Part shown: piece by piece, positions 39,490 to 51,292 of the stretch
How positions within the stretch are numbered: the stretch's first letter is position 1
How the letters are laid out: each line of letters starts with the position of its first letter
Made by a program: the position numbers and the translations under genes
The notes under the pieces: generated by a model
Databases searched by the model: none
The model's input: only the letters and a program-made list of their open reading frames with translations
What the model was told of the DNA's origin: nothing
Origin: Candidatus Dormiibacterota bacterium
Lineage (GTDB): Bacteria > Acidobacteriota > Polarisedimenticolia > Gp22-AA2
DNA: 64,000 bases
Direction: 5' to 3'
Assembly (NCBI GenBank): GCA_035635555.1
Contig: DASQAT010000039.1
Location: 1 to 64,000 of the forward strand

Positions 39490-39780
39490 ACGTATTTCCC
39501 CCGGGATGCGCAGACCCGCGCGCCGGCGAAACTTTATCCCGGTGGGAATCGGAATGCAACACGGGAGATGCTCCGGACCCTTTTTCATTGACTGGGAGAC
39601 CCAGGTCCGGTAGGATGCTTGGCGCACGCCTCGGATTGACTTCCGCACAGGTTGACCACGACGTGCCGCAGGGAGTTCCACTTTAATATTTCCGTGCACC
39701 CGATGTCGGGTTGAGGAAGAAGGATGGAGAGGACGGGCAATCATGCCCGCGCCTCGCTCGCGCGATACAGGAGAAGCAAC

Positions 39781-39984
39781 ATGGCCAGAGGCAAGGTGAA
39801 GTGGTTCAACGACGCGAAGGGTTTCGGGTTCATCAGTCCGGACGACGGTTCGAAGGACGTCTTCGTCCATCACTCCGCCATCAGCATGCCGGGGTTCAAG
39901 AGTCTCGCCGAGGGACAGGCGGTGGACTTCGACATCGTGCAGGGGCAGAAAGGCCCGGCCGCCGCGAACGTCCGCCCGGTCTGA
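39781..39984 (+). CDS. CspA-family cold-shock protein
   Basis: A 67-aa single OB-fold RNA chaperone. Both nucleic-acid-binding motifs are present: [10 protein letters not shown] (RNP1) and VFVHHSAI (RNP2), with the usual start [17 protein letters not shown] precedes the ATG by 8 bases; longer in-frame starts lack conservation. About 290 bases separate it from the divergent radical SAM gene, room for the long structured leader typical of cold-shock genes, and the AT-rich word TTTAATATTT at 39682-39691 may hold a -10 element, but I cannot define a full promoter. The RRM protein gene follows 7 bases later. Confidence 0.93.
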
Positions 39985-39991
39985 CGCCACC

Positions 39992-40378
39992 ATGGGACGG
40001 AAACTGTTCGTAGGCAATCTTTCTTTCGAGACGTCGGACGACGATCTGAAGGAGGCGTTCTCGAGAGTGGGGGCGTGCGAGATGGCCGCGGTCATCAAGG
40101 ACCGGATCAGCGGCCGATCGCGCGGCTTCGGCTTCGTCGAGATGGGCACGGACGAAGAGGCGCAGCGCGCCATCACCGAGCTGAACGGGAAGGATCTCCG
40201 GGGAAGGAACATCAGCGTCAGCGAGGCACGGGAGCGTTCCGAGAGCAGGGGACCGCGCCCCGCGATGGGTGGGTCGGGTGGCTCGCGCTTCGGGGACAAC
40301 CGGCCTCCCGCCGGCCCCCGCTTCCGGAAGGACGGCGGCAGCCGCCGCGGCGTCCGGGCGAGGAAGCGCAGCCTCTGA
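39992..40378 (+). CDS. RRM-domain RNA-binding protein
   Basis: A 128-aa protein with one RNA recognition motif (about 3-80): RNP2 KLFVGNLSF and RNP1 GRSRGFGFVEM, both with the aromatic RNA-stacking residues. The remaining 45 residues are Gly-, Arg- and Pro-rich and end in a basic RRGVRARKRSL, a disordered RNA-contact tail. Bacterial RRM proteins of this kind are usually cold- or stress-linked. It sits 7 bases after a cold-shock gene and is followed by another short basic protein, so the three look like a small RNA-binding operon. Confidence 0.9.
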   Translation: MGRKLFVGNLSFETSDDDLKEAFSRVGACEMAAVIKDRISGRSRGFGFVEMGTDEEAQRAITELNGKDLRGRNISVSEARERSESRGPRPAMGGSGGSRFGDNRPPAGPRFRKDGGSRRGVRARKRSL

Positions 40379-43473: not shown

Positions 43474-45060
43474 ATGCCCCGCAAACCGGTGCAACGTCGC
43501 GGCCCGAGACTGCTGACGGTCTTCCTTCTTGCCTGTACGCTCACGGCCCCGTCCCGTTCCGCCGACGATCCCTCCTTTCATTACTGCCCGGTCTGCGGAG
43601 CGCAGAACCGCGCCGAAAACCGCTTCTGCATGAAGGACGGCACCCCTCTGCCGGCGATCGACCCCGAGCGCCGGGTGCAGGGCTTCGTCCGCTCGCCGGG
43701 AACGATCTCCCCGGACGAGATCCAGCAGGTCATGCGCCGCGTCTCGGAGTCGGTGGTGCGCATCCGGGTACGGACCAAGACGACCTACAAGTACCCGATG
43801 ACCTATTGGAAGGACGAGGAGGCCGAGTACTACCACCGGGCGATGCTCGGCAAGATCGAGACGTCGGACAGTGACAGCCGCTTCGCCGGCTCCGGCTTCG
43901 TCATCAGCCCGGACGGCCAGATCGTGACCAACGCGCATGTCGCCAGCCCCGACGGCATGCAGGCCGACCTCACCGTCGAAACGCAGGACGGCAGGAGTTT
44001 CCCCGCGCGCCTGCTCGGCGTGGACGTCCCGAGCGATCTGGCGCTCCTGAAGATCGACACCAACGCGCTGGCGCCCCTCGCGTGGGGCGACTCGGGCGCG
44101 ATTCGGGTGGGGCAGGAGACCTGGGTGATTGGGAACCCGCTGAACATCGGAATCTCGATCGCCCGCGGCACGATGTCAGGGATCGCCGGGACGCGGGTCG
44201 GGATGAATCAGGTCGAGTCGTTCGTGCACTCCGACGCACACTTCACCCACGGCAACAGCGGAGGTCCCCTCGTGGACGTGCAGGGGCAGGTGATCGGGGT
44301 GAGCGACATCGTATTCTCCAGCGAGAAGGGACAGGGCTATTCGATCCCGTCCCGGATGGCGCGGCTGGTGGTCGACCGTCTGGCGAAGGACGGACGGTAC
44401 GAGAGGGGATTCATCGGCGTGCAGGTCCGCTCGGTGGACTCCGACGCCATCAAGAAATTCGCTCTTTCGAGGACCGACGGCTCGGTCGTGGAGTACGTGC
44501 TGCCGGACTCGCCGGCCGGCAGGGCCGGTCTCAAGCCGGGGGACGTGCTGTACGGCGTCAACGGCCATCAGGTGGCATCGACCTATCTCCTCCAGGAGGC
44601 GGTGTCCAGCGTGGGCGCCGGGGCCGCAGTGAGACTCGCGCTCGACCGGCAGGGCAAGACCCTTGAACTGCCGGTGACGACCACCGGGCGTCCGGCGGCG
44701 CCCCGCGTCGATCCGCTCGAGGACATGCAGAACTATCTTCGCCTGCACTTCGAGGAGGACGTGAAACGGAAACAGGTGATGATTCGCGACCCCTACCGTT
44801 CGCGCCGCGCGCCCGGTCTTTACGATGGCTTCCGGGTCAAGAGCGTGCTGCCGGCCCAGGACTGGCCCGAGGAGCCGATCACCCTGAGCTACTACAAGAC
44901 GCACGCGAGGCCGATCCCGATCGACAGCCTCGACGATCTGAGGTCGGCGCTGAAGCGTGCCTACCGCGGCGGAAAAATGGCCGCCACGTTCGAGATCGAC
45001 AACCCGTCAGCCCCCGTCGCATCGTTGGTGTTCGATGAGCTCTGGCCGATCATCCTCTAG
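43474..45060 (+). CDS. Zinc-ribbon HtrA-like serine protease with PDZ domain (intact triad)
   Basis: A 528-aa exported or membrane-anchored protein. After a hydrophobic N-terminus (about 13-30) comes a short ribbon, YCPVCGAQNRAENRFCMKDG, with Cys38, Cys41 and Cys52 but Asp where the fourth Cys is usual. A trypsin-like domain (about 85-300) has all three catalytic residues: His155 (VTNAHVASP), Asp188 (PSDLALLKID) and Ser262 (HGNSGGPLVD). A PDZ domain follows (about 310-400; LPDSPAGRAGLKPGDVLYGV), then a C-terminal domain of about 120 residues shared with the two paralogs downstream. DegP/HtrA enzymes degrade misfolded envelope proteins. GGAGA stands before the ATG. First gene of a three-gene cluster; the next ATG lies inside its last codons. 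Confidence 0.88.
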   Translation: MPRKPVQRRGPRLLTVFLLACTLTAPSRSADDPSFHYCPVCGAQNRAENRFCMKDGTPLPAIDPERRVQGFVRSPGTISPDEIQQVMRRVSESVVRIRVRTKTTYKYPMTYWKDEEAEYYHRAMLGKIETSDSDSRFAGSGFVISPDGQIVTNAHVASPDGMQADLTVETQDGRSFPARLLGVDVPSDLALLKIDTNALAPLAWGDSGAIRVGQETWVIGNPLNIGISIARGTMSGIAGTRVGMNQVESFVHSDAHFTHGNSGGPLVDVQGQVIGVSDIVFSSEKGQGYSIPSRMARLVVDRLAKDGRYERGFIGVQVRSVDSDAIKKFALSRTDGSVVEYVLPDSPAGRAGLKPGDVLYGVNGHQVASTYLLQEAVSSVGAGAAVRLALDRQGKTLELPVTTTGRPAAPRVDPLEDMQNYLRLHFEEDVKRKQVMIRDPYRSRRAPGLYDGFRVKSVLPAQDWPEEPITLSYYKTHARPIPIDSLDDLRSALKRAYRGGKMAATFEIDNPSAPVASLVFDELWPIIL

Positions 45061-46591
45061 CCGCCCTGCGCCGCGCCGGCGCCCCGGGGCGGCGGTCCTG
45101 ACCCTGGCCGCCGGTCTCGTCGGGAGCGGCCTGTTCGCCCAGAATGCTCTGCCGCCGCCGCCCGAAAGCCTCGAGGCCACTCCGACGCCGGCGCCGCTCC
45201 CGAAGCCGCCCGGTCCGAAGCTCTCGACCTGCCCGCGGTGCGGTTATCTGTGCGATCCTGCCTGGCACTACTGCGTCGCCTGTGGATGGGACATGACAAG
45301 GCTCATTGGAGAGGCGGAGGAGAGCCGCCTGCAGGCGATCGCGCGCGCCTCGATGGGCGTCATCGTGGGCGGCCGGCGGAACCGCTTCTCGACCGCGTTC
45401 CCTTTTGGAGGCCCGGGACTGTGGCTGACGAACGCGCGCTTTCTGATCGGCGCCGACGAAAGCAAGCTGAGGGTGCGCTCGTACAACAATCGGGAGTATC
45501 CCGCCTCGATCGTGGGATACGACCTGCCCTCCGGGGTGGGCGTGCTGAAGGCGGACATTCCAGCCGTGCCTTCGATTCAGGTCGCACAGACGGTTCCGGC
45601 TCCGCCCGAGTCCTCGTGGGCGGTCTGCTTCCCGGTGGTTTTCGAGGACGACGTGGTTCGATATCTCCCGGTATCCCTCCACCGCGGCCACCTGACCGCC
45701 ACCGGCCAGGCCGGCACCTTTCAGGTTTCGTTCGAAAACCTGCTGCGGACCGATCACTCGATCGAGGACGGCTGCTCGGGCGGCCCTCTGGTCGACTCGC
45801 GGGGACGAATCGCCGGGATGATCCTGGGGAGTCCGGACGACGGCATCACCTACGCGCTGCCGCTCGACGGTCTGCAGGACATCGTCGCATCCCTCGTCCG
45901 GCACGAACAGCCCGTCCGGCCGTTCTTCGGCATCGGTCTTTCTGCTCCCGATGAGCGGCGGCGCGCGAAATTCGGCCTCGACGGCGGCGCGGGCCAGCCG
46001 CTGATCTCCTATCTCATTCCGGGTTCGCCCTCGGTCCAGGCCGGGCTCCGTCCGGGGGACCTCCTCCTGCAGGTCGGAGGGGAGAAGATCACGACCATTT
46101 GGGAGGCGGGAAAGAGGCTGCTGGCGGCGCCGCCCGGCGGTGCCGGCGTGACGCTGATGGTCGCGCGCGGCAACACCGAGACCCGGGTGACCGTGACGCC
46201 GGCGAAGCGGCCGGAGCGCGTGATGCTCGACCCGATCGATGAGCTGCAGGAGACGCTCGAGGTGAATCTCAAGGAGGTCACCACCGGACCGGGCGCGCAG
46301 CAGGGACTGGTGGTCACCAACATGGTGCGAGGCGGCCGGGGGGAGAAGGGGCATTACAAGGACGGCGACATCATCACGGCGGTCGACAAGAAATCGGTCA
46401 AGACGTTCGCGACGTTCGACGAGACCATCCGGACGAAGTTCAAGGAGATCTTCGCGGACGGACCCGTGAGCGACAAGCGCTTCGCCTCCTCCTACGTCGT
46501 GACGCTGGAGGTCCGCAAGGAAGGGGACGAGAAGGTGACGCGGGATTACGTGAACCTGTTTCCCGATTTCCTGGCGCCACCCGTGTACTAG
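45035..46591 (+). CDS. Zinc-ribbon HtrA-like PDZ protein, degenerate catalytic triad (copy 2)
   Basis: A 518-aa paralog of the preceding gene, overlapping its end by 26 bases. The N-terminus is a signal/anchor (about 18-36) and a Pro-rich linker. The zinc ribbon is complete: Cys66, Cys69, Cys80, Cys83 (CPRCGY and CVACG). In the trypsin-like domain the catalytic His is Arg135 (LTNARFLIG) and the Asp position is Gly167 (PSGVGVLKAD), while Ser248 remains (GCSGGPLVDS). It therefore should not cleave peptides. The PDZ domain (LIPGSPSVQAGLRPGDLLLQV) is intact and is followed by the cluster-specific C-terminal domain (HYKDGDIITAVDKKSV). Probably a scaffold or regulator of the active copy. Confidence 0.87.
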   Translation: MSSGRSSSSRPAPRRRPGAAVLTLAAGLVGSGLFAQNALPPPPESLEATPTPAPLPKPPGPKLSTCPRCGYLCDPAWHYCVACGWDMTRLIGEAEESRLQAIARASMGVIVGGRRNRFSTAFPFGGPGLWLTNARFLIGADESKLRVRSYNNREYPASIVGYDLPSGVGVLKADIPAVPSIQVAQTVPAPPESSWAVCFPVVFEDDVVRYLPVSLHRGHLTATGQAGTFQVSFENLLRTDHSIEDGCSGGPLVDSRGRIAGMILGSPDDGITYALPLDGLQDIVASLVRHEQPVRPFFGIGLSAPDERRRAKFGLDGGAGQPLISYLIPGSPSVQAGLRPGDLLLQVGGEKITTIWEAGKRLLAAPPGGAGVTLMVARGNTETRVTVTPAKRPERVMLDPIDELQETLEVNLKEVTTGPGAQQGLVVTNMVRGGRGEKGHYKDGDIITAVDKKSVKTFATFDETIRTKFKEIFADGPVSDKRFASSYVVTLEVRKEGDEKVTRDYVNLFPDFLAPPVY

Positions 46592-46618
46592 GGGTGCGTC
46601 CGCAGGAGACAGTCCAGG

Positions 46619-48109
46619 ATGAGACGACGCGAGGTCCTGACACGCCTCCCGCTCTGGGGGCTGACCGTCGCGGCCCTGATCGCGTGCGGTCCGGCGCTCT
46701 GGGGATTCGCGGAGGACGCGACCTGCCCGAAGTGCGGAGCTCCGCTCGAACCGGGCGCCCAGTTCTGCGGACGCTGTGGCTACAGGCTCGAGAAGCCTGC
46801 CGTCCCCGCACTCGCCACTCCGGACAGGCGCAGCGCCGTGGTGCAGGTGGTGACGGTCCACGACAGTGAGCTGACCTCGACCTACAACTCGCTCGCCAGC
46901 GAGTCGAACGTGCAGGTCGGAGCGATTCTCGGGAGCGCATTCGCCATCGGGCCCGGAGAGTTCGTGACGGACAGCGGCCTGCTGGTCGGCTCGAAGGAGG
47001 TATCGTTGCGGACCTCCACGGGTCGGACGGTGATCGCGTCCATCGTCGGCACCGATTCGATGATTGGAGTCGCCCTCCTGCGGGCCGATCTCAAGGACGT
47101 GGCGCCGTTGAGCGTCCGCGAAAACGAGCCGCCGCGCACGGGGGAGAGCCTCGACGCCCTCGGGTTCTCGAGCGGCGTGGGCCCCGGCGGCACGGTGGTG
47201 GTCTCATCCGGGGTCGTCAGCGGGCTGCACCGCGGCAATGCCGGTTACCACCCGATCGAGGACTATCTCCAGACCGACGCATCGCTGCCGCGCGGGCTTG
47301 CCGGAGGGCCGATGATCGACCCCGGCGGCCGGGTCGTCGGGATGAGCACGGGACTCGTGCTGGGCTCGCGCGTCTACCTCGGACAGAGCGGCATCGGCTA
47401 CGCCGTCCCGGCGGAGTGGATCGACCGGGCGCTCGCCTGGATCCGCTCCGGCGCCCCCCCCCGCGCCTGGCTGGGGGCGTACACCATCGCGGTGGATTCC
47501 GAGGCGCGGGAGAGGTACAGGCTGCCGCCCCAGGCGAAGCTCGTCATCGAGCAGATTTTCCCGGGCAGCCCGGCGGCCGCCGCCGGTCTCAAGAGAGGCG
47601 ATGGTCTGCTGAAAGTTCAGGACGAGGAAGTCTCCACGCTGCCCCGCGTGCAGGAGAGGCTGCTGTCCATGAAGACCGGGGAGCCGGTCGCCCTCGAGAT
47701 CATGCGGGGAGCGGATGTCCAGCACGTTGCTGTGACGCTGTCGCCGCGGCCGGAGCGCCCACGGCTCGCCGGGATCGATGCGTTGCGTTTTTTCGCCGGC
47801 CTCGATCTGATCCCCCAGGGGGACGACAGGCTGGTCGTCGCCTCTGTCGTCCCGGGATCGGAGCTCGTCCATTACAAGATTGCGGCGGGGGACGTCCTGC
47901 AGAGCGTCCTGAGCAAGAAGGATTGGTTGCACGGTGCCAAGGACAACTCGCGCTGGCGCTCGGTGCACACGGTGTCCGATCTCGAGACGCGCCTCGAGAC
48001 GGCGTATTCAGACCTCGACTTTGCCCTGGGGCTGCGATTCAAGTCGAAGGACGGGACGAAGCGCGAGCTTTACCTGTGGGAAATCCTGACCCCTACTGCG
48101 GCGCTCTAG
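46619..48109 (+). CDS. Zinc-ribbon HtrA-like PDZ protein, catalytic triad lost (copy 3)
   Basis: A 496-aa third paralog, 27 bases after copy 2, with AGGAGA upstream. Signal/anchor at about 8-30. The ribbon is complete (Cys36, Cys39, Cys50, Cys53; CPKCGAPLEP, CGRCGY). In the trypsin fold the positions of the triad are Gly120 (VTDSGLLVG), Gly150 (SMIGVALLRAD) and Ala228 (RGLAGGPMID), so no serine-protease activity is possible. PDZ: IFPGSPAAAAGLKRGDGLLKV. The C-terminal domain (ELVHYKIAAGDVLQSVL) aligns in order with copy 2. The loss of the triad with retained fold suggests a binding or assembly role. Confidence 0.87.
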   Translation: MRRREVLTRLPLWGLTVAALIACGPALWGFAEDATCPKCGAPLEPGAQFCGRCGYRLEKPAVPALATPDRRSAVVQVVTVHDSELTSTYNSLASESNVQVGAILGSAFAIGPGEFVTDSGLLVGSKEVSLRTSTGRTVIASIVGTDSMIGVALLRADLKDVAPLSVRENEPPRTGESLDALGFSSGVGPGGTVVVSSGVVSGLHRGNAGYHPIEDYLQTDASLPRGLAGGPMIDPGGRVVGMSTGLVLGSRVYLGQSGIGYAVPAEWIDRALAWIRSGAPPRAWLGAYTIAVDSEARERYRLPPQAKLVIEQIFPGSPAAAAGLKRGDGLLKVQDEEVSTLPRVQERLLSMKTGEPVALEIMRGADVQHVAVTLSPRPERPRLAGIDALRFFAGLDLIPQGDDRLVVASVVPGSELVHYKIAAGDVLQSVLSKKDWLHGAKDNSRWRSVHTVSDLETRLETAYSDLDFALGLRFKSKDGTKRELYLWEILTPTAAL

Positions 48110-48183: not shown

Positions 48184-48717
48184 TCAGGAATGCGCTCTGG
48201 GCCGTGGCACGCGCGCCCGCGGCTTCTTCTTGGCAGCGGCGCCCTGCTTCGTGGTCGTCCCCTCGTGCGTGATCGTGTTGCCGTCCTTGGTCCAGGTGCC
48301 GTGGCTGCTCACGGTCCCGCCGTTCGGCCCCGTGGTCGAGCCGTCGCGCGTGACGGTGTTGCCGTCCTTGGTCCAGCCGGCGCTGCTGCTCGCGGTCTTC
48401 CCGTTGGGGCCGGTCACGGTGCCCTGGCGCGTGATCGTGTTGCCGTCATTGGTCCAGGTGTTCTGCGTGGTGACCTTCTTGCCCTTCGGGCCGGTGGTGG
48501 TGCCGACGCGCGTGACGGTGTTGCCGCTCCGGGTCGTGGTCGACTCGCTGGTCGTGGTCTTGCCGTTGGGGCCGGTCACCGTGCCGTGACGGGTGACTGT
48601 GTTGCCGTCCTTGGTCGTCGTGACCTCTTTCTGCGACGTGTCGTCGGCGATGAGACGTGAGCCGCCGGTGAGAAGAGCGATCACGGCGAGAATGCCCAGA
48701 GCGCGCGCCCTGTCCAT
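48184..48717 (-). CDS. Exported protein built from 27-residue repeats
   Basis: A 177-aa secreted protein. A signal peptide (about 1-24) is followed by four full and one partial 27-residue repeats starting at residues 37, 64, 91, 118 and 145, each with the pattern (D/S)GNT(V/I)TRxGTxTGPxGK and a Thr/Ser-rich spacer. The end is a basic tail (AAAKKKPRARVPRPRAHS). Alternating polar and hydrophobic residues with Asn/Gly turns suggest a beta-solenoid or extended adhesive fold. I know no named family for it. Transcribed toward the protease cluster and separated from it by a long hairpin. Confidence 0.75.
   Translation of the reverse strand: MDRARALGILAVIALLTGGSRLIADDTSQKEVTTTKDGNTVTRHGTVTGPNGKTTTSESTTTRSGNTVTRVGTTTGPKGKKVTTQNTWTNDGNTITRQGTVTGPNGKTASSSAGWTKDGNTVTRDGSTTGPNGGTVSSHGTWTKDGNTITHEGTTTKQGAAAKKKPRARVPRPRAHS
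48247..48609 (-). repeat. 81-bp tandem coding repeats
   Basis: Four and a half copies of an 81-base unit that encode the 27-residue protein repeats. Words such as TTGCCGTCCTTGGTCC and GTTGGGGCCGGTCAC (plus strand) recur at this spacing. The copies are diverged, so they are old or under selection rather than freshly expanded. Confidence 0.7.
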
Positions 48718-48908: not shown

Positions 48909-50516
48909 TCAGCCCCGGCGCGGCCGCCCGCTCCGCCGGTCCTTCAGGACGACCCGGGCCGCGTTCCTGCCCGGCGCTCCCATGACCCCTCCTCCCGGGT
49001 GCGTCCCGGAGCCGCACATATAAAGGTTATCGATCGGAGTCCGGTAGCGGGCCCAACCGAGGAGCGGGCGCATCGCGAAGAGCTGGTCGAGCGCCATGTC
49101 GCCGTGGCAGATGTTTCCGCCGGTCAGGCCGTAGATCTCCTCGAAGTCGAGCGGCGTGAGGACCTGGCGGTGGAGAATGGCCCGGCGCAGGTTCGGGGCG
49201 TACGAGGCGAGAGTGTCGACGGCCAGGTCCCCGAGGGCCTCCCTGCGGGACGGCCAGTCCCCCTCGGCCAGGCGGTAGGGGACGAACTTCATCGAGATCG
49301 ACAGGACGTGGCGGCCTTCAGGCGCGAGCGTCGTGTCGACGGTCGAAGGGAGGACGATGTCCAGGTAGGGCCGGCGCGACGGGTGTCCGGCCCGGTAGTC
49401 TTCGAACGCCTCCTCCAGATATCCGGGGCTCTGCCCGCAGACCTGGATGGAGCCGCGCAGATGCGGTCCGTCGCCGGGGAGGGCCGTGAAGTCGGGAGGC
49501 TCCGAGAGGGCCAGATTGATCTTGGCCGAGTTGCCGACGCAGCGGACGTTCTCGATGCCGAGCACGAAATCGGGCGGCAGCTGGGAGCGTTCCATCAATC
49601 CCAGGAACGTGCGCTTCGGGTCGGCGTTCGAGACGACGCACCGGCCGAGGATCTCCTCGCCTCCCTCGAGGACGATCCCCCGGGCGGCGCCGTCCGCGAC
49701 CAGGATCCGCTCGACCGGCGCGCCGACCCGGATCTCCGCGCCGTGGGAGCGGGCCGCGGCGGCCAGGGCCTGGGTCACGCCCCCCATCCCCCCGCGCACG
49801 AATCCCCACGAGCCCGGTGATCCGTCCGCCTCTCCGAGGTAGTAGTGCAGGAAGACGAAGGCCGTCCCCGGCGCGCTCGGACTGCCGTACGTGCCGATCG
49901 TCCCGGTGGCGGCGAAGCCGGCCTTCAGCTCCTTCGACTCGAACCATTCATCCAGGAGCGCCGAGCAGCTCATGGTCATCGTCTTGAGAAGAAGCGTCTG
50001 GTCGGCCAGGGTGAGACGTCGAAATCGGTTCCCCAGCCTCAGCAGGCCGAGCAGGTCGACGACGCCGGGGGAGGGCAGGCTTGGAGGAAGCATCGCCAGA
50101 GTCGGGCGGACGAAGTCGGCCATGCGGGCGATGGCGGCGTTGAACCGGGGATAGGCCTCTGCGTCCTTCCTGGAGAAGCGCGCGATCCGACGCGCGTCCT
50201 CCTCCGGACCGAGCCCGAGCAGGAGCGATCGTCCGTCCGGGAACGGCGTGAACGAGGTGCGGCACGGCAGGATCTCGAGGCCGTGCTCCCGCAGCCGAAG
50301 ATCCCGGATGATCTCGGGGCGCAGGAGCGACAGGACGTAGGACGTCGTCGAGAACTTGTACCCCGGGAAGATTTCCTCCGTGACGCAGGCGCCGCCGACG
50401 ATCGGCCGGCGCTCGACGACCAGGGTCTTCATCCCGCCGCGCGCCAGGTACGCCGCCGCCACGAGGCCGTTGTGTCCGGCCCCCAGCACGATGACGTCGA
50501 ACGGCCCGCTCACCAT
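48909..50516 (-). CDS. FAD-dependent phytoene-desaturase/PYROXD2-like oxidoreductase
   Basis: A 535-aa flavoprotein. The dinucleotide fold is at the start: FDVIVLGAGHNGLVAAAYLARGGM with ERRPIVGGACVTEEIFPGYK. Middle motifs include GSWGFVRGGMGGVTQALAAA and CVVSNADPKRTFLGL, and the C-terminal FAD contact is NLYMCGSGTHPGGGVMGAPG. This order is that of the carotenoid desaturase/isomerase superfamily, closest in layout to PYROXD2/phytoene-dehydrogenase-like proteins. No carotenoid genes are near. Its ATG overlaps the stop of the upstream barrel gene (ATGGTGA), so it is the second gene of an operon. Confidence 0.87.
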   Translation of the reverse strand: MVSGPFDVIVLGAGHNGLVAAAYLARGGMKTLVVERRPIVGGACVTEEIFPGYKFSTTSYVLSLLRPEIIRDLRLREHGLEILPCRTSFTPFPDGRSLLLGLGPEEDARRIARFSRKDAEAYPRFNAAIARMADFVRPTLAMLPPSLPSPGVVDLLGLLRLGNRFRRLTLADQTLLLKTMTMSCSALLDEWFESKELKAGFAATGTIGTYGSPSAPGTAFVFLHYYLGEADGSPGSWGFVRGGMGGVTQALAAAARSHGAEIRVGAPVERILVADGAARGIVLEGGEEILGRCVVSNADPKRTFLGLMERSQLPPDFVLGIENVRCVGNSAKINLALSEPPDFTALPGDGPHLRGSIQVCGQSPGYLEEAFEDYRAGHPSRRPYLDIVLPSTVDTTLAPEGRHVLSISMKFVPYRLAEGDWPSRREALGDLAVDTLASYAPNLRRAILHRQVLTPLDFEEIYGLTGGNICHGDMALDQLFAMRPLLGWARYRTPIDNLYMCGSGTHPGGGVMGAPGRNAARVVLKDRRSGRPRRG

Positions 50517-51292
50517 CCCCACCCGAGGATGAACTTCACGGTCCAGTCGTCCGACCCCGCGGTGAGACCCCGGCCGATTCCGAAATCGACGTCCAGCTTC
50601 GGGCCGGAATAGTCGCCGACGAGGAACACCTCCTGGAAGCGCCGTCCGCCGGATTCGAAATCGTCGATGGGACCGAAGTCGGCGTAGTGCTCGATCCCGG
50701 CGGCCCAGGTGGAGGAGAACAGGTACGCCAGGCGCGCCGCGGGCGCGAAATCGACGGTATGCCGCGGTCCGCTCAGAACGACGTCCACGATCGGATTGAG
50801 GATGAATTCGAGCGGGGCGCGGCGCCAGCCGATGATCGGACGGATCTCCGAGTTCCAATGGCTTTTTTCGAACAGGCGCGGCTGATAGCCCAGCTCGAAG
50901 TTGACGCCGTAGAAGAAGCGCCGGTCGTGGGCGTGTGGCGAGGCGACGAGCGTGCGCAGCTTGGCCCCGCCCGCGGCGAAATCACCGCCACGCGTCACCG
51001 CATAAGGGAGGTACAGACCCACCTCCCAGAAATCGGTCAGGCCGAGCGCGAACTCCGGCGTGCCGTTCCAGGCTCCGTCCGGAACCAGGCCGCCGGGATG
51101 CTCGGGGGCGGCGCGGCCGCGGGGAACGTAGTTGCCGTGCAGCTGCAGGCTGAACCGTCCCGGAGGATTGATCTCGGCGTTGTAGACCTGGATCTCGTCG
51201 CCCGCGCGCGCGGTATCGGCGCCCAGGAGAAGACAGAGAACGGCCCCGACCAGCCCTCCGCCCCCGGGTCTCGCCACGCGCGACGTCCGCAC
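50510..51292 (-). CDS. Exported outer-membrane barrel-like protein
   Basis: A 260-aa exported protein starting at GTG 51292, with a signal peptide cut near ADTARAG. The mature part has strand patterns of an outer-membrane barrel (VYNAEINPPGRFSLQLHGNY, FWEVGLYLPYAVTR, FFYGVNFELGYQPRLFE, ending WTVKFILGWGW). It looks like transporter-type or MetA-pathway-like small barrels, but the family is not certain. The open frame upstream of 51292 overlaps the next gene and is not coding. Coupled with the oxidoreductase gene by a 7-base overlap. Confidence 0.72.
   Translation of the reverse strand: MRTSRVARPGGGGLVGAVLCLLLGADTARAGDEIQVYNAEINPPGRFSLQLHGNYVPRGRAAPEHPGGLVPDGAWNGTPEFALGLTDFWEVGLYLPYAVTRGGDFAAGGAKLRTLVASPHAHDRRFFYGVNFELGYQPRLFEKSHWNSEIRPIIGWRRAPLEFILNPIVDVVLSGPRHTVDFAPAARLAYLFSSTWAAGIEHYADFGPIDDFESGGRRFQEVFLVGDYSGPKLDVDFGIGRGLTAGSDDWTVKFILGWGW

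Follow-up and report, generated by a model that had tools for sequence, protein, structure and literature searches.

The usual picture of HtrA proteases is one of self-regulating homo-oligomers, with control exerted by their own PDZ domains. The locus described here lets one ask whether dead partners can control a DegP-type oligomer. It lies in a stretch of DNA of 64,000 nucleotides, referred to below as the window, from a soil-type Acidobacteriota bacterium (genome of 4.28 Mb in 59 contigs, 99% complete), in which three adjacent and co-directional HtrA-type genes (c1, c2 and c3, + strand, 43474-48109) encode one protein with an intact catalytic triad and two with substitutions at the catalytic positions.

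Architecture of the gene block

The features of the block are as follows.

43474..45060, + strand: c1, zinc-ribbon (CCCD) HtrA/DegP-like protease, 528 aa, H155/D188/S262 intact, PDZ1 and predicted PDZ2, probably exported
45035..45060, + strand: c1/c2 overlap, 26 nt, end of c1 over start of c2
45035..46591, + strand: c2, zinc-ribbon (CCCC) HtrA-like putative pseudoprotease, 518 aa, R135/G167/S248, PDZ1 and predicted PDZ2
46592..46618, + strand: c2-c3 gap, 27 nt
46619..48109, + strand: c3, zinc-ribbon (CCCC) HtrA-like putative pseudoprotease, 496 aa, G120/G150/A228, PDZ1 and predicted PDZ2

The mechanically called reading frame of c2 begins earlier, at 44957, and the ATG at 45035 is probably its true start. 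These coordinates, with the 26-nt overlap and the 27-nt gap, bear out the original prediction for this locus, as do the catalytic residues listed for each copy. An overlap of 19-29 nt marks the junction of c1 and c2 both in the window and in three related genomes (G007, G008 and G011), and the three proteins are 26-30% identical to one another.

Each protein begins with an Arg-rich and hydrophobic segment, followed by a zinc ribbon, a Trypsin_2 domain (Pfam, E values of 4e-32, 1e-11 and 8e-18 for c1, c2 and c3) and a PDZ domain, the latter detected by Pfam in all three copies; the ribbon passed the Pfam cut-off in c3 only. This order had been anticipated, together with a C-terminal domain common to the three copies, which modelling identifies as a second PDZ domain (PDZ2). 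The AlphaFold models of c2 and c3 (mean pLDDT about 65, lowest around the dead active sites) matched DegP/DegQ chains in full, in alignments of more than 400 columns and with PDZ2 included, with Foldseek E values of 1e-20 to 1e-23, and both copies have the trypsin fold, PDZ1 and PDZ2 in the same fold order as DegP/DegQ. VIA-align placed c2 (residues 92-506) on Legionella DegQ with a Z of 22.5 over 355 residues and an rmsd of 10.7 A, which probably reflects differing domain placement. The match of c2 to the DegP-family profile TIGR02037 also extends into PDZ2; in c1, PDZ2 is predicted by alignment of the C-terminal part. All three proteins are probably exported. Lipoprotein anchoring of c1 and c3, considered for the Cys in their signal regions, was rejected since this Cys varies in orthologs.

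The best PDB matches of c1 were DegP/DegQ, and c1 has the trypsin-fold domain with His-Asp-Ser and GNSGG of the HtrA/DegP (S1C) type. Its TIGR02037 score of 266.7 bits lies below the NCBIfam cut-off of 416.2, and c1 is thus best described as a divergent relative of the strict Do family, yet an HtrA-type protease as judged by fold and triad. As a separate observation, the window c2 (45350-45400) is shorter by about 30 residues, close to where the protease core begins, than its counterparts at four related loci (L019, L020, L021 and L022); the residues it lacks occur in c2 of G007 and of the sister family and perhaps mark the position of the DegP LA loop.

Catalytic residues, conservation and descent

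The substitutions at the catalytic positions were found throughout the orthologs. All four complete c1 copies have His-Asp-Ser. In c2, Arg at the His site and Gly at the Asp site were present in 6/6 orthologs, and the nucleophile site was Ser, Ser, Thr, Leu, Leu and Gln, so that Ser is not conserved. In c3, Gly at the Asp site and Ala at the Ser site were each present in 7/7, with Gly or Ser at the His site. No ortholog of c2 (R/G/(S,T,L,Q)) or c3 ((G,S)/G/A) therefore carries a catalytic triad, and both are, by these residues, HtrA homologs and apparently not proteases. The control set consisted of 28 other HtrA homologs, drawn from this genome and its relatives and from two Acidobacteriota genomes at greater distance: all 28 keep His-Asp-Ser and none has the ribbon, which argues that the combination of triad and ribbon states in the triplet is not due to chance. 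One could imagine that c2 or c3 is a protease with a different catalytic centre, for instance with Cys247 of c2, invariant beside the former Ser, as nucleophile. This is scarcely credible, however, as c2 has Arg at the position of the base and Gly at the Asp site, and the Asn-Ser step of its oxyanion loop is changed, while c3 has Ala; in neither is an arrangement with a base apparent.

To follow the block in related genomes, c2 was searched against 149 relatives, and profiles of c2, c3 and c1 against 31. Besides the genome of the window, six genomes of the order yielded the ordered block, two from the same genus (G003 and G004), one from the same family (G007) and three from a sister family (G008, G009 and G011), with identical gene order and strand throughout. 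Contig ends cut the block in three of these: in G003 and G009 the end falls in c1, whose N-terminal pieces are found on other contigs, and the G004 contig starts inside c2, with a c1 fragment at another contig end. A further genome, G002, has the end of c3 alone, at a contig edge. No uncut contig of any genome carried just one or two of the copies, which would have spoken against a unit. The profile search detected none of c1-c3 in G001, G005, G006 and G010 of the same order; G001 belongs to the same genus and is 100% complete, and the genes that flank the block elsewhere are spread over separate contigs in it. Profiles run against 396 genomes across the phylum found no member of the triplet beyond the order: the top out-of-order matches to the c3, c2 and c1 profiles scored like ordinary HtrAs, and the ribbon was absent from the out-of-order c1 matches examined. 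A scan of a genome collection with c2 returned a single extra record, the same contig as in G003.

The genes around the block vary. An amidohydrolase lies upstream in the window and downstream in G003; the flanks hold a LigB-type dioxygenase in G004, an M49 peptidase and an OPT transporter in G007, and DUF3857 and an M42 peptidase in G011. Presence of all three genes or none, in the same order, tightly packed and amid changing flanks, supports the idea that the triplet is one functional unit; the block is kept in six further genomes across two families, with the residue pattern in every ortholog.

Several other genes of the window were recorded in passing. On the - strand, 48184-48717 encodes a 177-aa protein with repeated 'DGNTVTR.GTTTGPNGK' units behind a signal-like N-terminus, which gave no Pfam or NCBIfam match, and 48909-50858 encodes a FAD-dependent CrtI/CrtO-like carotenoid oxidoreductase, whose match to the CrtO model is below the cut-off; relatives each have several DNA stretches that resemble it. 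On the + strand, 39992-40378 encodes, as judged by eye, a small RRM-type RNA-binding protein that apparently adjoins a cold-shock-like reading frame (39711-40013).

A reading of c2 and c3 as pseudogenes in decay, or as artefacts from the assembly of a single htrA gene, was weighed against substitution rates and phylogeny. By the Nei-Gojobori method, dN/dS was 0.13-0.33 for c2 and c3 and 0.12-0.30 for c1; c2 and c3 are under purifying selection, which excludes plain decay. One genome of seven calls for caution: c2 of G003 carries an internal deletion of about 58 codons and a frameshift (contig C76, L017, 1400-1435). The parts that flank the lesion are well conserved, with the 3' part 84% identical, and the lesion could stem from faulty assembly or from a very recent loss. 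In the other genomes the c2 and c3 frames are open, their residue pattern is fixed and their clades are deep, and paralogs that are 26-30% identical are not assembly copies. Decay or artefact is thus contradicted and very improbable. With the block spread over two families, purifying selection and fixed residue changes, the view of c2 and c3 as functional pseudoproteases, already part of the original prediction, is well supported.

In a tree of 45 proteins, c1, c2 and c3 each formed a clade (support 100/100 each), c2 and c3 were sisters (100/98), and the triplet was separate from the other 28 HtrAs (100/99). Since c2 and c3 are sisters and each copy forms its own clade, the loss of catalysis is old and predates the split of the two families; since the sisters share the Asp-to-Gly change, catalysis was most simply lost once, before c2 and c3 diverged. 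A stepwise loss from c1 through c2 to c3, as first suggested for this locus, is not supported. Rooted on the other HtrAs, the tree is most simply read as follows: a ribbon-bearing HtrA was duplicated, catalysis was lost in the c2/c3 ancestor, and a second duplication was followed by specialisation.

Zinc ribbons, signalling residues and a proposed mechanism

The ribbon motif of c1 is C-x2-C-x10-C-x2-D in 4/4 c1 proteins with a complete N-terminus, and four Cys are present in c2 (6/6) and c3 (7/7). Asp is able to act as a zinc ligand, and it is invariant in c1, so that 'conserved variant' describes the c1 ribbon better than 'loss'. The Cys counts from which a trend of ribbon decay opposite to that of the triads had been drawn (three in c1, four in c2 and c3) are thus correct; the decay is not upheld. 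A search of the genome with a ribbon pattern returned c1 as the sole match, and three further c1-like proteins of another family in the phylum have no ribbon. As it directly follows the signal or anchor segment, the ribbon should sit outside the cytoplasm.

We then compared the copies with E. coli DegP at Arg187 of loop L3, Arg262 of PDZ1 and Gln200. DegP passes on substrate binding through the loop-L3 Arg and the PDZ1 Arg, and Arg187 has a special role in the sensor loop L3. The equivalent of Arg262 is kept in c1, c2 and c3. The equivalent of Arg187 is kept in c3 (7/7; R205 in the window) and is present in 28/28 other HtrAs. In c1 the L3 place is Gly in the window (44180-44200), with an alignment uncertain by a few residues, and Arg in the other three c1 proteins. 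In c2, Gln or Leu stands at the place of Arg187 and Arg in place of Gln200; having lost the L3 Arg and gained this Arg, c2 is not a plain sensor. With both Arg kept and its nucleophile fixed as Ala, c3 would be the likelier sensor subunit.

Retention of two PDZ domains with the PDZ1 Arg in both c2 and c3 would also suit stand-alone non-catalytic proteins, such as chaperones of the periplasm or scaffolds built on PDZ domains, expressed together with c1 and taking no part in its oligomers or regulation. DegP has a chaperone role without proteolysis, and the low identity of c2 and c3 to c1 (26-30%) is in keeping with such a separation. However, presence or absence together with c1, and close packing across genera, speak for a joint function, although this would fit a joint pathway too. 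We consider the stand-alone proteins a doubtful alternative, if the foremost one.

Four residues set c2 apart: C198, H216, H241 and C247 are invariant in 6/6 orthologs and absent from c1, c3 and the 28 active HtrAs. In c3, H204 and H211 are invariant. C198 and C247 of c2 align with the LD and L1 loop regions beside the former active site, for which reason a putative metal or disulfide site is possible there, and the dead cleft of this more derived copy may have been turned into one. Together with the invariant four-Cys ribbons of c2 and c3, and with MamO as a precedent for a dead HtrA domain that binds metal, these residues raise the possibility that c2, c3 or both are MamO-like repurposed metal binders and that the envelope relies on the triplet for metal handling or for folding that depends on metal. 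We regard this as unlikely: a disulfide or a plain structural role would equally conserve the residues, model confidence is low around the His and Cys of c2, and no metal genes were found at the flanks examined.

Taken together, these data suggest that the triplet is a protease complex whose dead copies steer the active c1. We propose, with moderate confidence, an HtrA operon with one active protease and two pseudoproteases that forms an envelope system of the DegP/HtrA type, in which c2 and c3 act on c1 in mixed oligomers or in trans. According to this model, c2 and c3 would stem from duplication of a ribbon-bearing HtrA, their catalysis lost long ago and their genes kept. The three genes would be transcribed together and their products exported, to reside near the membrane or in the periplasm, zinc ribbons included. 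There, c2 and c3 would enter mixed HtrA oligomers with c1, or attach to it in trans, by way of conserved surfaces of the protease fold and the PDZ domains; as the copies are only 26-30% identical, interfaces for mixed trimers are not to be taken for granted. Without cutting, the dead subunits would decide which substrates c1 takes and whether it is on or off, with c3 perhaps signalling to a neighbouring live subunit. Such hetero-oligomeric regulation is plausible. That c3 is the sensor subunit and the Cys2His2 cleft of c2 senses metal or redox state, so that envelope proteolysis would be gated by metal or redox together with substrate, is a speculative extension of the model which we hold to be improbable. 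With one live copy and two dead ones, this natural operon, stable across genera, would have its sensing and cutting parts separated.

Relation to known systems

Among known systems, the DegP/DegQ (Do) family of S1C proteases is similar in that c1 has the triad and PDZ domains and c2 and c3 share the fold order; unlike DegP/DegQ, c1 has an N-terminal zinc ribbon, scores far below the TIGR02037 cut-off and lies beside non-catalytic paralogs. ClpP/ClpR and FtsH/FtsHi are pseudoprotease-containing oligomers that are ATP-driven and have folds unrelated to HtrA. Like the triplet, they combine active and inactive paralogs, in a shared assembly that is a proposal for the triplet.

A search of the open-licence literature returned no paper describing such a triplet of HtrA, pseudoproteases and zinc ribbons. 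The original prediction had gone further in stating that no system like this had been described, and this was wrong, as MamE/MamO (PMC4794232) and plant Deg7 (PMC3473262) are precedents. MamE-dependent proteolysis requires MamO, a metal-binding protein whose own triad is dispensable, and pairs of active and inactive HtrAs arose three times in magnetotactic bacteria (PMC4794232). As in MamE/MamO (PMC4794232), an active HtrA lies next to a conserved inactive HtrA paralog in the same gene region. Unlike MamE/MamO, the triplet has two pseudoproteases, N-terminal zinc ribbons and two PDZ domains in each copy; the TauE transporter domain of MamO was not found in the triplet by Pfam, and the MamE model scored 114 and 51 bits against c1 and c2, with a cut-off of 800.

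Plant Deg7 combines two HtrA domains, one active and one inactive, in a single chain, and the inactive domain has been reported to serve trimerisation (PMC3473262). The triplet resembles it in having active and degenerate HtrA domains and PDZ tandems, which form one assembly in Deg7 (PMC3473262), and differs in that Deg7 is one polypeptide with four PDZ domains, whereas the triplet consists of three separate genes with ribbons and no fusion. The triplet is thus neither MamE/MamO nor Deg7, and is set apart by its separate genes, two dead partners, zinc ribbons and DegP-type double PDZ.
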